The translations under genes were made by a program, and so were the position numbers. Positions 27,947 to 37,675 of a stretch of DNA of 64,000 bases are shown here, piece by piece. The notes under the pieces were generated by a model. The model was not told the DNA's origin. It did not search any database and was given only the letters and a program-made list of their open reading frames with translations. This stretch comes from Sulfitobacter sp. M39 (lineage in GTDB: Bacteria; Pseudomonadota; Alphaproteobacteria; Rhodobacterales; Rhodobacteraceae), in the NCBI RefSeq assembly GCF_021735935.1, contig NZ_WMDZ01000001.1, positions 2,418,001 to 2,482,000 on the forward strand, given 5' to 3'. How positions within the stretch are numbered: the first letter of the stretch is position 1; each line of letters begins with the position of its first letter.

Positions 27947-28330
27947 TCACACCGTCGGTATGCCTTTTTCCATGCAGTTCTGCACGGTCACTTCAGCATC
28001 TATTGTCTTCAAGCCCGCAGGCAGGCTCGGCGAGATGGTGTAAACAGCATCTGCGTGCCAGACACCACCCTCGATCTCAACATTTGTACGCACGTGGCGG
28101 GCAAAACCAAAGCCCCGGATCAAAGTATAGCGCGCCGCGGCACATTCCGCGTATTCCGCTACATTCTCCGATGACTGCGCTTTGGTCATCGCCACGTCGA
28201 ACTGGACAAGATCCCCGTCCAGCAGTTTGGTTTCAACACCGCGATATTCGGGAATGAAGTCTTCGGCCATGGGTGCCTGCGTCTCGCAGGCACCCAGAAC
28301 CAAAGGCAACATCATCCCCAAAATCCTCAC
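27947..28330 (-). CDS. small predicted lipoprotein between nuoG and nuoH
   Basis: A 127-residue protein starting GTG in a GTGA overlap with the nuoG stop. Its signal ends LVLGAC, so it should be a lipoprotein. An ATG five codons in has a better-placed GAGGA (8 bases), but it would leave a 9-residue signal without a basic residue. The mature part has a few Cys (ECAAARY, QNCMEKG) that may form a disulphide. I do not recognise the family. Being encoded inside the nuo operon suggests an envelope partner or a passenger. Confidence 0.75.
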
Positions 28331-30865: not shown

Positions 30866-31192
30866 TCAGGAAGGGCAAGCCCCCTGAAACGTCAAAGCGT
30901 CGTCCACAAGGCGCAAATTCTCGGGCGGGGTGTCCGGCCCCACGACCCATTTGATATCGGAACTGCCATAGTTGGTCACACAATACACCGCCGCCTCATA
31001 GCGCGCGGCTTCGCGGGCACCGGTGATCGACTGCGAGGCATTGCGCACCCGCAGGGTAAAGACATCGCGTTGCCCGTCGACTTTGTTCAGCTTGGTGCGG
31101 AAATATTTACCATCAAAGGCCAGACGGTCTTCGCGGGCGGTACAGCCGGCCAAGACCGCGGCCGTTATACAAAATAGAACAATCTGCTTCAT
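30866..31192 (-). CDS. small predicted lipoprotein between nuoF and nuoG
   Basis: A 108-residue protein with a lipoprotein signal MKQIVLFCITAAVLAGC (Cys17). The mature part is polar with a beta-rich look (YFRTKLNKVDGQRDVFTLRVRN) and ends with two further Cys (YCVTNYG and QGACPS), possibly a disulphide. It resembles the general plan of the other small lipoprotein at 27947-28330. No family is recognised. The 117 bases before the next gene hold no other ORF. Confidence 0.78.
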   Translation of the reverse strand: MKQIVLFCITAAVLAGCTAREDRLAFDGKYFRTKLNKVDGQRDVFTLRVRNASQSITGAREAARYEAAVYCVTNYGSSDIKWVVGPDTPPENLRLVDDALTFQGACPS

Positions 31193-33005: not shown

Positions 33006-33233
33006 TTATGTGTCACGGCTGGCCGCGCGGGCCCGCCTCATCTGATATATATTGACCATTGCCCAGATCAGGGCTGCCAGCGCGGCAAAGTCGAACAGCA
33101 GCGCATAGCGTCCGGGCAAGCCGAACTGCGGCGCGAGCCATTGCGCCGCGATCCAAAGCAACATGGTGCCGGCAATGACAAGGCCGACCATCCGGCCCTT
33201 ACGGGCCAGGGCGATTTCTTCCTTATCTGTCAT
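33006..33233 (-). CDS. DUF5337-type small membrane protein
   Basis: A 75-residue protein with two membrane helices (about 14-30 and 44-61), starting [15 protein letters not shown] and ending in a basic tail. It matches the DUF5337 family that I know from Rhodobacteraceae nuo operons. It lies 11 bases before nuoF on the same strand. Function unknown. Confidence 0.82.
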
Positions 33234-33254: not shown

Positions 33255-34250
33255 TCAGGTCTTTTTACTACGAGTGGAGAATTCGGTCTCTCCACCGGAT
33301 GCGAGGGTCTTGGCCTGCGCCATCCAGTCATCACGTTGAATACGGCCTTTGAACCGCACGCGGGCATCAACCCATGCGATTTCAGCCGCGGTCCATTTGG
33401 CGATCTGTTCAAAGTGATAGATCCCCAGCTCATTCAGCGTTTGTTCAAGTTTCGGCCCTACCCCACTGATAAGCTTGAGGTTATCGGCACCGCCAGCGCG
33501 CGGCTGGTCTAGCGTTTCGGGGCTGCTTTCCACAGTATCCGCCGGAATATCCGCGATCCCCGAACGGGTCGAGGTAGCACCCTCAACGGTGGCCGGTGCC
33601 TGCGGTGTTTCAGCCGGCGTTGGTTCCGGGATAGAGGCGACAGGTTCCGCCGCCGCTTCTGCTGCGGGCGCAGGAGCCGGAGCCGCCTTGGCCTTTGCAG
33701 GCTCGGCTGCAGGGGCTTCGTATTTGTAGCTGCCTTTGCGCGCAGCGAGTTCCTCTTGGCCCTTCAGTTTGGCCGTGGGCTTGATCCCCGAGAAAGCGGC
33801 GGGTTCGTCTTTGGCCGCCGGCGAGGTGCCCGCTGTCGCCTCTGACGCGGCACCGCCGACATCGGCCTTTGCCTGACCGCCGGTCGTGTCTTCGGGGCGA
33901 GTCTCTACCGTTTCGGTGGCAGCGGGTTCCGCCTCCAGCGTCGGCTCAGGCTCTACCGCGGCGTCGCTGGTTGGTGCGGCGCTGGCCGCCTGGGTTGTGG
34001 CCGCCGTTGCAGGTGCCGCCGCCGCCGCAGGGGCGCTGGCCGTCTGCATAGGCTCATGCCCAAGCGGCCCGCACATGAATTTGGACAGGACCACAAAGGT
34101 CACAAGCCCCAGTATGATTCCAAGGAACAGCGAGGCTATAAAGCCCCAGCCGAAAACCAGCCAAAATAGCAACGCGAGGACAACGCCGACCCCGGTCCCC
34201 CACTGTGTGCAACCGCGTCTGCATTGCTCTTTTTGCGTCAAATCAGTCAT
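33255..34250 (-). CDS. membrane-anchored Ala/Glu/Pro-rich protein ending in a helix-hairpin-helix domain
   Basis: A 331-residue protein. The start at 34250 is preferred (AAGGGA five bases before the ATG). After a polar start with two Cys (QCRRGCTQWG) come two close membrane helices (about 20-58), then about 190 residues of low-complexity Ala/Pro/Glu/Thr linker. It ends in an HhH-type domain at about 255-331 (LISGVGPKLEQTLNELGIYHF...FKGRIQRDDW). The last 77 residues are clearly related to the end of NuoE next door. It may anchor or bridge complex I components; that is inference. Confidence 0.85.
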   Translation of the reverse strand: MTDLTQKEQCRRGCTQWGTGVGVVLALLFWLVFGWGFIASLFLGIILGLVTFVVLSKFMCGPLGHEPMQTASAPAAAAAPATAATTQAASAAPTSDAAVEPEPTLEAEPAATETVETRPEDTTGGQAKADVGGAASEATAGTSPAAKDEPAAFSGIKPTAKLKGQEELAARKGSYKYEAPAAEPAKAKAAPAPAPAAEAAAEPVASIPEPTPAETPQAPATVEGATSTRSGIADIPADTVESSPETLDQPRAGGADNLKLISGVGPKLEQTLNELGIYHFEQIAKWTAAEIAWVDARVRFKGRIQRDDWMAQAKTLASGGETEFSTRSKKT

Positions 34251-34284
34251 GTCCGTCCCTTCGTTCGCCATTCAAGATGATCTA

Positions 34285-35595
34285 TTATGTGTTATAGATA
34301 CCATCTTTTGTGGCGCGCGACGAGAATTCTGTTTCTTCACCAGAAGCAAGCTTTTTCGCCTGCTCGACCCAGTTGTCGCGGGTCACGCGGCCCTTGAAAC
34401 CTTCGAGGTTCTGATCCACCCAGGATACCTCGTTGGGGCCCCAGTCAGCGATCTGGCTAAAGTGGTAAAAGCCCATCTTGTTAACCAGCGCTTCGAGCTT
34501 AGGACCGATGCCCTTGATCATCTTGAGGTCATCCGCCGCGCCGCCTTCGGGGGCATCCAGCGTCTTGGGCTTGGTGGCTGCAGCATCCGCGTTGGCTTCG
34601 GCAGACTTCGCAACCGATGCTTTTTTGGTGCCCGCGGTCGGGGCTTTGGGTGCAGGGGCCGGATCGCCCGGCGCGACGCTGCCTGTTTCGGGTTTGCCCA
34701 CAGCTTCGGTGCCGTCAGCCTCCCCCGGTGCTTCGGAGCGTTGATCCGAGGCATCGCCAACATCACGTGGTGCGTCTTCCTCTGCGGCGGTACGACCGCC
34801 TTGGGCACCGTCAGGGCCTTCGGGTGGCATATTGTCATCCCGCGCAACAGGCTGTTCCTTGTCGGAACCGGCGCTGTCTGCACCATCTTTACCCTGCCAG
34901 GGGGCAGTCAGCGGCACTTCGGTACCATCGATGCGCTTGAGCGTATCGCCGATGTCCACGGCCAGCTGCGCGCTGGCGTTATATTGTGTCTTACCACTGT
35001 CGTGATCGGTTAGGCTGGTCAGCCCGGACAGCGGTTCAGAGGCATAGCGCCCGTTCTGCGGCCCGGGTACAGGCACCTGCCCCGCCGCCATCTCGTCGAT
35101 CATGGCGCGGAAGCCGTCGACGGTCAGATCTTCGTAATAGTCCTTGCCGATCTGCGCCATCGGCGCGTTCGAACAGGCCCCCAGACATTCGACTTCTTCC
35201 CACGAGAATTTGCCGTCTGCGCTGATCTGATGGGCCTTGGGCGCGATGCGTTCCTTGCAGACCTCGATCAGGTCTTCAGCACCGCAGATCATGCAGGATG
35301 TCGTGCCGCAAATCTGGAAATGCGCGACCTCGCCCACAGGCTGAAGCTGGAACATAAAATAGAATGTCGCGACCTCGAGCCCGCGGATATAGGCCATGCC
35401 CAGCATTTCAGAGACATGTTCGATTGCAGGGCGGCTCAGCCAGCCTTCTTGTTCCTGCGCACGCCACAGCAAAGGGATGATCGCGCTGGCCTGACGGCCT
35501 TCGGGGTATTTCGTGATCTGCGCTTCGGCCCAAGCCTGGTTGGCGGGGGTGAAGGCAAAGCTTGTCGGTTGGTCAGGGTGCAAACGGCGCAGCAT
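34285..35595 (-). CDS. nuoE: NADH-quinone oxidoreductase subunit E with C-terminal HhH extension
   Basis: A 436-residue protein, much longer than E. coli NuoE (166). The 2Fe-2S thioredoxin-like domain occupies about residues 20-170, with the Cys ligands in [16 protein letters not shown] and [11 protein letters not shown] long charged Ala/Pro/Glu/Asp linker follows, and then a helix-hairpin-helix-type domain at 354-436 ([21 protein letters not shown]...[10 protein letters not shown]). A similar extension is found on other Rhodobacteraceae NuoE proteins. The N-domain role in NADH oxidation is sure; the role of the tail is unknown. Confidence 0.96.
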
Positions 35596-35673: not shown

Positions 35674-36900
35674 TCAACGGTCGACCTCTCCGAAAACGAT
35701 GTCCATGGTGCCGATGATCGCCGCGACATCCGCCAGCTGGTGCCCCTTGGCGATGTAATCCATCGCTTGCAGGTGCAGGTAGCCGGGCGCGCGCAGTTTG
35801 GCACGGTAGGGTTTGTTCGAACCATCCGCCACAAGGTAGACGCCGAATTCGCCCTTTGGGGCCTCGACAGCGCAATAGACTTCGCCGGCGGGGACGTGGA
35901 ACCCTTCGGTGTAGAGCTTGAAGTGGTGGATCAGGCTTTCCATGTCGGTTTTCATCGCGGTCCGGCTGGGGGGCGTGATCTTGCCCCGCGCCAATACATC
36001 GCCCTGCCCTTCGGGCGCGCGCAGCTTCTCGATGGCTTGCTGGATGATGTAGGTGGACTGGCGCATTTCTTCCATGCGGACGAGGTAGCGGTCATAGCAA
36101 TCGCCGTTCACACCGGTCGGAATCTGGAAGTCGAATTCATCGTAGCATTCATAGGGCTGCGCACGGCGCAAATCCCACGCCAGGCCAGAGCCGCGGACCA
36201 TCACGCCCGAGAAGCCCCAATCCTGGATGTCCTGTTCAGACACGATGCCGATGTCAGCGTTACGCTGTTTGAAGATCCGGTTTTCTGTCAGCAGCTGATC
36301 CACGTCGACCATGAAGCCCGACAGGAACTTGTGGGTCCATGCCTCGATATCATCAAGCAGCGCAGGCGGCAGATCCTGATGAACACCTCCGGGCCGGAAA
36401 TAGGCCGCGTGAAGACGGGCACCGCAGGCGCGTTCGTAGAAGATCATCAGATCTTCGCGTTCTTCAAAGCCCCAAAGCGGCGGTGTCAGTGCACCTACGT
36501 CCATCGCCTGCGTGGTGACGTTCAGCAGGTGCGACAGGATGCGGCCGATCTCGGAATAGAGCACGCGGATCAGAGAGGCGCGACGGGGCACCTCGACGCC
36601 GGTCAGCTTTTCGATGGCCAGACACCAGGCGTGTTCCTGGTTCATCGGGGCCACGTAATCCAGCCGGTCGAAATACGGCAGGTTCTGCAGGTAGGTGCGG
36701 CTTTCCATCAGCTTTTCGGTGCCACGGTGCAGCAGGCCGATATGCGGATCGCAGCGTTCGACGATCTCGCCGTCGAGTTCGAGAACCAGACGCAGAACCC
36801 CGTGCGCCGCAGGGTGTTGCGGGCCGAAGTTGATGTTGAAGTTGCGGATCTTCTGCTCGCCGGTCAGGGCGTCTTCGAAACCTTTGGTGCCGTCCATCAT
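35674..36900 (-). CDS. nuoD: NADH-quinone oxidoreductase subunit D
   Basis: A 408-residue, 49-kDa-type subunit shaping the quinone site with Nuo[23 protein letters not shown] (with the quinone-site His), the EKL...[15 protein letters not shown] region and the final [12 protein letters not shown] are diagnostic. It has two adjacent ATGs. The first overlaps the stop of the upstream 57-residue ORF (ATGA) and has GGAG 5 bases away, the second 8. Confidence 0.98.
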
Positions 36901-37070
36901 TTACGCTCCAGCTCGGTCAGTTTGACGCCCATCCACCACAAAAGGGCGACGGTGCCCAAAGGCACGATACAGGCAACAGACCAGTATTTATTGATCCCGA
37001 AAAACGGCAACAGCTTGACCATCGGGATGATTGTGAGGGCAGACAGTATGAACCACCACATGCCCCCCAT
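36897..37070 (-). CDS. 57-residue two-helix membrane protein between nuoC and nuoD
   Basis: This small ORF fills the nuoC-nuoD gap exactly. Its ATG overlaps the nuoC stop by one base (TAATG) and its TGA overlaps the nuoD ATG (ATGA). The product starts [16 protein letters not shown] and ends [10 protein letters not shown]. Two hydrophobic helices (about 4-22 and 29-50) are joined by a short loop with FFGINKYW. The arrangement shows it is translated between two core subunits at matched rates. I do not recognise a family. A role in complex I assembly or stability is inferred from coupling alone. Confidence 0.85.
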
Positions 37071-37675
37071 TATTTTGCCTCCGGCTTTTCATCGCCCGGC
37101 AGAATATATTCGGCCCCTTCCCAAGGCGACATAAAGTCGAACTGGCGATATTCCTGAACGAGGCTCACGGGTTCATAGACCACGCGCTTTTCGCTCTCGT
37201 CATAGCGGACTTCGGTATAGCCGGTGGTTGGGAAATCCTTACGCAGCGGGTAGCCGCGGAACCCGTAGTCGGTCAGCAGGCGACGCAGGTCGGGGTGGCC
37301 GGCAAAGATGATGCCGAACATGTCAAAGACCTCGCGTTCGAACCAGTTGGCCGACGGGTGGATATCGACGATCGAGGGGACCATATCCTCTTCGCGCGCG
37401 GCGACGCGCAAGCGGATGCGCTGGTTCTGGTACATCGACAGGAAATGATAGACGACATCAAAGCGTTTGGCGCGGCCCGGGTAATCCACCGCGGTGATAT
37501 CCACCAGCGAGGAGAAACGGCAGGTCGCGTCGCTTTTGATAAATTCTACCAGACCGGGCAGATTGGCCTGGGTGACATCCATGTTCAGCTCGTCAAAGGC
37601 GATGTCCCAGCCGAGGATACAGTCGGGGCGTTTCGCTTCGATATACGCGCCAAGTTCGTTCAGTTGTTCTGACAT
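37070..37675 (-). CDS. nuoC: NADH-quinone oxidoreductase subunit C
   Basis: A 201-residue, 30-kDa-type peripheral subunit. [40 protein letters not shown] and the [24 protein letters not shown] signature are all present. NuoC is separate from NuoD here, unlike the E. coli fusion. It starts 9 bases after nuoB. Confidence 0.98.

Follow-up and report, generated by a model that had tools for sequence, protein, structure and literature searches.

The window analysed here, a stretch of 64,000 nucleotides from Sulfitobacter sp. M39, carries genes of respiratory complex I on its minus strand in the order nuoB, nuoC, a 57-codon open reading frame (ORF), nuoD, and nuoE. The features around the ORF are the following, with positions given for the window.

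37070..37675, minus strand: nuoC, complex I 30 kDa subunit (PF00329, E 3.2e-46; Pfam and NCBIfam)
37078..37082, minus strand: GGAGG, likely ribosome-binding site of the 57-codon gene (sequence)
37068..37072, minus strand: TAATG junction, with one base common to the nuoC stop and the start of the 57-codon gene (sequence)
36897..37070, minus strand: 57-codon gene for a predicted two-helix membrane protein, TGA stop included in the coordinates (homologues, dN/dS, structure model)
36906..36909, minus strand: GGAG within the end of the 57-codon gene, possible ribosome-binding site of nuoD (sequence and inference)
36897..36900, minus strand: ATGA junction, with four bases common to the stop of the 57-codon gene and the start of nuoD (sequence)
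35674..36900, minus strand: nuoD, complex I 49 kDa subunit (PF00346, E 2.1e-114; Pfam and NCBIfam)

The ORF reads from 37070 to 36897 and is joined to both of its neighbours: its ATG has one base in common with the TAA stop of nuoC, and its TGA stop overlaps the ATG of nuoD within AAATGATGG. The initial annotation had reported these overlaps of 1 nt and 4 nt, both of which are read in the sequence; it named no strand, and the strand is minus. The GGAGG lies within the end of nuoC, 7 nt 5' of the ATG. The opposite strand also carries a 464-aa ORF (35740-37134), which was rejected as a gene, since it is antisense to nuoD and to the 57-codon gene, and the conserved frames are those of the sense strand.

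Conservation of the frame and of its overlaps

The mere absence of stops over such a length is weak evidence for a gene, because a dinucleotide Markov model of the region leaves 56 codons free of stops in 18% of random stretches. That rate speaks for a chance frame with no gene behind it, a reading which conservation at the codon level refutes and whose probability we consider close to nil. A scan of 84,980 species genomes yielded 87 relatives of the 57-aa protein, and the best 80 of these 87 homologous loci encode it at 61–88% identity. Stops within the 57-codon length occur in frame 0 in 2 of 127 distinct homologues, compared with 126 in frame +1 and 57 in frame +2. The median pairwise dN/dS over all homologues is 0.246 in frame, far below the medians of the control frames, which are 0.885 (+1), 2.045 (+2), and 0.985 (antisense). 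For the near clade (89 distinct sequences), the value is 0.137, and nuoC at these loci has 0.109. The ORF is thus a true gene, held under purifying selection about as strong as that on nuoC. The initial annotation had held it to be real and had proposed a homologue search and dN/dS among the checks, and the result agrees with that view.

The same annotation had stressed that overlaps at both ends would couple the gene to its neighbours, and both are widely kept among the loci. The TAATG overlap of one base with the nuoC stop is found in 107 of 151 distinct loci. Where the nuoD start lies no more than 20 nt away (51 distinct loci), 29 have the ATGA overlap of 4 nt. A Shine-Dalgarno-like word precedes the start in 135 of the 151, a raw count with no background rate beside it. 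It could be supposed that these overlaps are all that matters, the ORF being a translational spacer that sets the NuoC:NuoD ratio and whose peptide is irrelevant. Overlaps of 1 nt and 4 nt are indeed common, but the amino acids are conserved about as well as those of NuoC, many residues being invariant, and relatives without the gene couple nuoC to nuoD directly through ATGA. A spacer function is therefore very improbable.

A predicted membrane hairpin and its relatives

The hydropathy profile of the 57-aa protein has two peaks, of 1.98 (residues 8-26) and 1.84 (residues 31-49). Across 27 sequences, 17 of the 57 positions never vary, including W6, P16, LPFFGI (21-26), W30, P37, W45, and L54-E55. 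From these 27 sequences, AlphaFold2 places helices at residues 3-12, 14-23, 28-35, and 37-56 (mean pLDDT 86.4, pTM 0.61), and the predicted fold is a kinked helical hairpin in which helices 3-23 and 28-56 are joined by a conserved LLPFFGIN turn. Peaks and model together are in line with the two hydrophobic helices that had been noted from the sequence. Since both halves of the hairpin are hydrophobic, an inner-membrane protein with both ends on the same side is predicted. A Foldseek search of the PDB with the hairpin model returned five matches, none with E <= 0.001, a result to be read knowing that two-helix hairpins seldom yield significant matches.

Sequence searches of Pfam, NCBIfam, and the PDB, run with the protein and with two alignments, placed the 57-aa protein in no family; the best stray database match (E 0.0016) came from one of 35 members of the wider set of relatives. 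Plasmid records held no match to the protein. Its score against TcpE (PF12648) was 12.9 bits, below the gathering score of 29.9. By these sequence comparisons, the putative two-helix membrane protein family is unnamed, with no match in Pfam, NCBIfam, or the PDB.

A candidate remote relative among named families is DUF805 (PF05656). The gathering score of this family was missed throughout (0 of 27 near members had a match, and 1 of the 35 wider members matched at E 1.6). In profile-profile comparison, however, the nuo set reached a probability of 53.7% directly and the wider set 81.8%, against at most 1.0% for controls (20 block-shuffled and 2 reversed). The aligned part is limited to the last two helices of a domain whose full length is about 111 positions, and there both share the pattern 'helix - G-[small]-x-WW/YW - P - helix'. 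The nuo hairpin differs in its length of only 57 aa, in having no N-terminal half, and in being unassigned by Pfam. Remote kinship with the DUF805 hairpin, short of membership, is accordingly the probable relationship suggested by the profiles.

An iterated profile brought in more two-helix proteins from the nuoC-nuoD interval, in which the terminal KLQELEKR is replaced by, for example, AFKDD, and confirmed one (L129) of 12 weak class-level matches (L128-L139). A match in one further genome (G431; L178, E 8.5e-4), with no nuoC or nuoD, was dropped as doubtful. At the level of the class, the wider family occurs in 52 of 387 genomes, including G000 and G055, or in 50 of 385 outside Sulfitobacter; its members end in AFxxWP and are often in tandem. 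After removal of overlapping sequences, the profile-profile probability of a match between the nuo set and the wider set is 98.2%, a score that rests partly on composition, since reversed controls reach 32% and 22%. This alphaproteobacterial 'WP family' has the same length and hairpin as the nuo proteins, and tandem pairs are common in it; it differs in its C-terminus (AF..WP versus KLQELEKR) and in lying mostly outside the nuo operon.

The distant homologues raise the alternative that the gene is an operon passenger, a general membrane or envelope hairpin that gains steady expression from nuo and is unrelated to complex I, to which we give somewhat less than an even chance. Outside Rhodobacteraceae, 27 of 28 loci have no nuoC or nuoD within 1.5 kb, and by eye some of their neighbours look like lpd and lipA (L217, L229), rlmN (L221, L235), purB (L218), and copper genes (L214, L216), all of which is what a passenger would lead one to expect. 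At L217, L229, L221, and L235, the wider-family hairpins are often tandem pairs.

The nuoC-nuoD junction as a variable gene slot

The near profile matches 86 of 394 Rhodobacteraceae genomes, with 87 matches in all. Eighty-five of these lie between nuoC and nuoD (L363 being placed by coordinates), and the other two (L356, L277) follow nuoC on contigs that stop short of nuoD. Of the best 80 scanned loci, 79 are flanked by nuoC and nuoD, and at the remaining one the start of the contig falls within the ORF. The centre of the match is within 150 nt of the nuoC end in 68 of the 87; elsewhere, extra genes or spacer intervene. No convincing near-profile match was found outside Rhodobacteraceae among 289 genomes drawn over the class. 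The wider profile later found two genomes (G728 and G569) outside this family, and in G569 the relative (L212/L389) is flanked by nuoC and nuoD. The divergence of the gene tracks that of nuoC across 163 distinct loci (Mantel r 0.62, reached by 0 of 500 permutations).

What the junction holds was surveyed in 130 Rhodobacteraceae genomes, two from Sulfitobacter and otherwise one per genus, in 125 of which NuoC was found. The two-helix gene or a relative occupies the interval in 34 of the 125, including one genome (G061) whose contig ends before nuoD. Other occupants are sulfotransferase genes (28), Lumazine_bd_2/NTF2-like genes (9), GFA genes (5), and a 43-aa ORF with a basic tail (4), and some intervals combine several of these classes, whose assignment was checked on example proteins. 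The interval is no longer than 30 nt in 38 of the genomes, with the exact ATGA overlap in 24 of those 38, and is longer but has no assigned gene in 22. Outside the family, the 48 best-scoring of 80 genomes with a NuoC match were examined, and in 45 of them the nominal interval does not exceed 90 nt; the remaining three hold a hairpin (G569), another ORF, and 118 nt without a clear gene. Because the interval is short in 45 of these 48 genomes, an occupied slot is mainly a feature of Rhodobacteraceae. The nuoC-nuoD junction is thus a variable gene slot in this family and is mostly closed in other alphaproteobacterial families.

Several loci have more elaborate arrangements. L075 and L155 have intervals of about 2 kb, in which two sulfotransferase-like ORFs lie beside the hairpin gene; at L064, a methyltransferase-like ORF separates nuoC from it; and L005 and loci of the L065, L094, and L099 type have two tandem two-helix paralogues per interval.

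Within Sulfitobacter, nine of the 12 same-genus genomes listed match the near profile. In the other three (G420, G453, and G466), the end of nuoC overlaps nuoD directly in AAATGATGGACGGC, the same letters as at the junction from the 57-codon gene to nuoD in the window. As far as NuoC and NuoD show, the complex I genes of these three genomes are intact, so the gene is dispensable to them. They group together in a NuoC+NuoD tree with a support of 90. Mapped on that tree, which has 135 rows, the hairpin switches between present and absent at least 25 times (mean of shuffles 29.5, with 4 of 300 as low), presence of the sulfotransferase 23 times (25.3 when shuffled, 36 of 300 as low), and the empty interval 23 times (32.6 when shuffled, 0 of 300 as low). 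These counts are upper-end estimates, since resolution of the tree is poor (of 132 inner branches, 15 are starred and 72 open), and each of them takes gains and losses together. Divergence in step with nuoC, taken with the patchy presence, fits inheritance with the flanking genes plus frequent loss or exchange.

In a broader but rather doubtful model, the junction would be an exchangeable cargo slot: stop/start overlaps would keep nuo translation coupled, entire contents would be swapped or cleanly deleted through recombination in the conserved nuoC and nuoD flanks, and the hairpin would be one of several alternative modules that tune complex I or its membrane surroundings. Exchange of this kind might be mediated by gene transfer agents.

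Accessory protein of complex I or operon passenger

The initial annotation had proposed a dedicated complex I factor made in step with NuoC and NuoD. Part of this claim holds. Within Rhodobacteraceae, all 87 matches are in the nuo operon, and the gene is, as expected of such a factor, co-inherited with that operon. It does not occur wherever complex I is present, being limited to the 34 of 125 genomes above, it is absent from three Sulfitobacter genomes with intact nuoC and nuoD, and its distant members lie away from nuo at 27 of 28 loci. 'Dedicated' is therefore too strong. Close relatives do without the gene, so complex I as such does not need it; and as relatives carry other genes or nothing at the same place, its product is probably an optional helper and not a fixed part of the enzyme.

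The reading that we tentatively favour, at slightly under an even chance, is that the hairpin protein may serve complex I of Rhodobacteraceae as an optional accessory or as a modulator of its assembly. A ribosome that ends nuoC could begin the 57-codon gene, and one that ends this gene could begin nuoD. Synthesis of the hairpin would then keep pace with that of NuoC and NuoD, two subunits of the Q-module. Once inserted into the inner membrane, the hairpin might act at the place at which the Q-module joins the membrane arm, either aiding docking or retention or modulating the finished enzyme. Selection like that on nuoC, the hairpin model, the synteny with nuo, the co-divergence with nuoC, the relative in G569, and the kept overlaps all argue for such a role. 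Its restricted occurrence, the three Sulfitobacter genomes without it, the unrelated genes in the slot, and the distant relatives elsewhere argue against it.

The passenger alternative is nearly as likely. It gains from the patchy distribution of the gene across Rhodobacteraceae, and from a slot that also hosts sulfotransferase, GFA, and Lumazine_bd_2/NTF2-like genes with no obvious tie to complex I. Against it stands the absence of any of the 87 Rhodobacteraceae matches from outside the nuo interval despite frequent gain and loss at the slot, since a free passenger would be expected elsewhere at times. It is this strict confinement within the family that favours a functional tie with nuo, and with it the accessory role.

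Additional proteins on alphaproteobacterial complex I have a precedent in Paracoccus denitrificans, whose complex I structure contains the extra subunits NDUFS4, NDUFS6, and NDUFA12 and a methyltransferase, CI-PIMT; by the description of that structure, none is a two-helix membrane protein (PMC11522691). No PDB chain is similar in sequence to the hairpin, over a period that covers this structure, a point that may count against the accessory role. In the earlier purification of the same complex, mass spectrometry failed to detect two of the core subunits, both small and hydrophobic (PMC8115037), so gels of that kind could overlook a 57-aa hairpin too. No gene between nuoC and nuoD was found to be named in the open-licence literature.

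Older descriptions of the nuo reading frames of Rhodobacter and Paracoccus exist. Small membrane modulators of respiratory enzymes are also known, such as CydX. The hairpin resembles modulators of this type as a very short, operon-encoded membrane protein that adjoins the genes of an enzyme, a likeness of gene context in which the function of the hairpin remains putative.

Whichever reading holds, an unnamed and conserved family of putative small membrane proteins is added to a very well studied operon, and a junction between core Q-module genes proves variable in one family while other families mostly keep it closed. Should the hairpin touch complex I, closely related species that have or lack the gene would offer a natural experiment on the role of optional subunits; should it not, a core operon would host unrelated passengers with its translational coupling unbroken.

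The nuo region of the window holds other small or unusual ORFs. A DUF5337 protein of 75 aa (33006-33233, minus strand; E 6.2e-33) is likewise encoded by a small membrane protein gene within a rhodobacteral nuo operon; it belongs to another family and lies between a 338-aa ORF and a nuoF-like ORF. The nuoE-like protein and the next ORF, that of 338 aa (33255-34271, 34285-35595, minus strand), have a similar C-terminal segment (…K-ISGVGPKLE-like…) and the endings SGGETEF/SGEETEF, which is suggestive of a duplicated domain. Two short ORFs of the nuo operon region (30866-31192 and 27947-28330, minus strand) have lipoprotein-like starts and no Pfam match. Finally, in one of the genomes compared (G030:C208:10660-11263), the nuoC match extends over two overlapping frames, which may reflect a frameshift or an assembly error.
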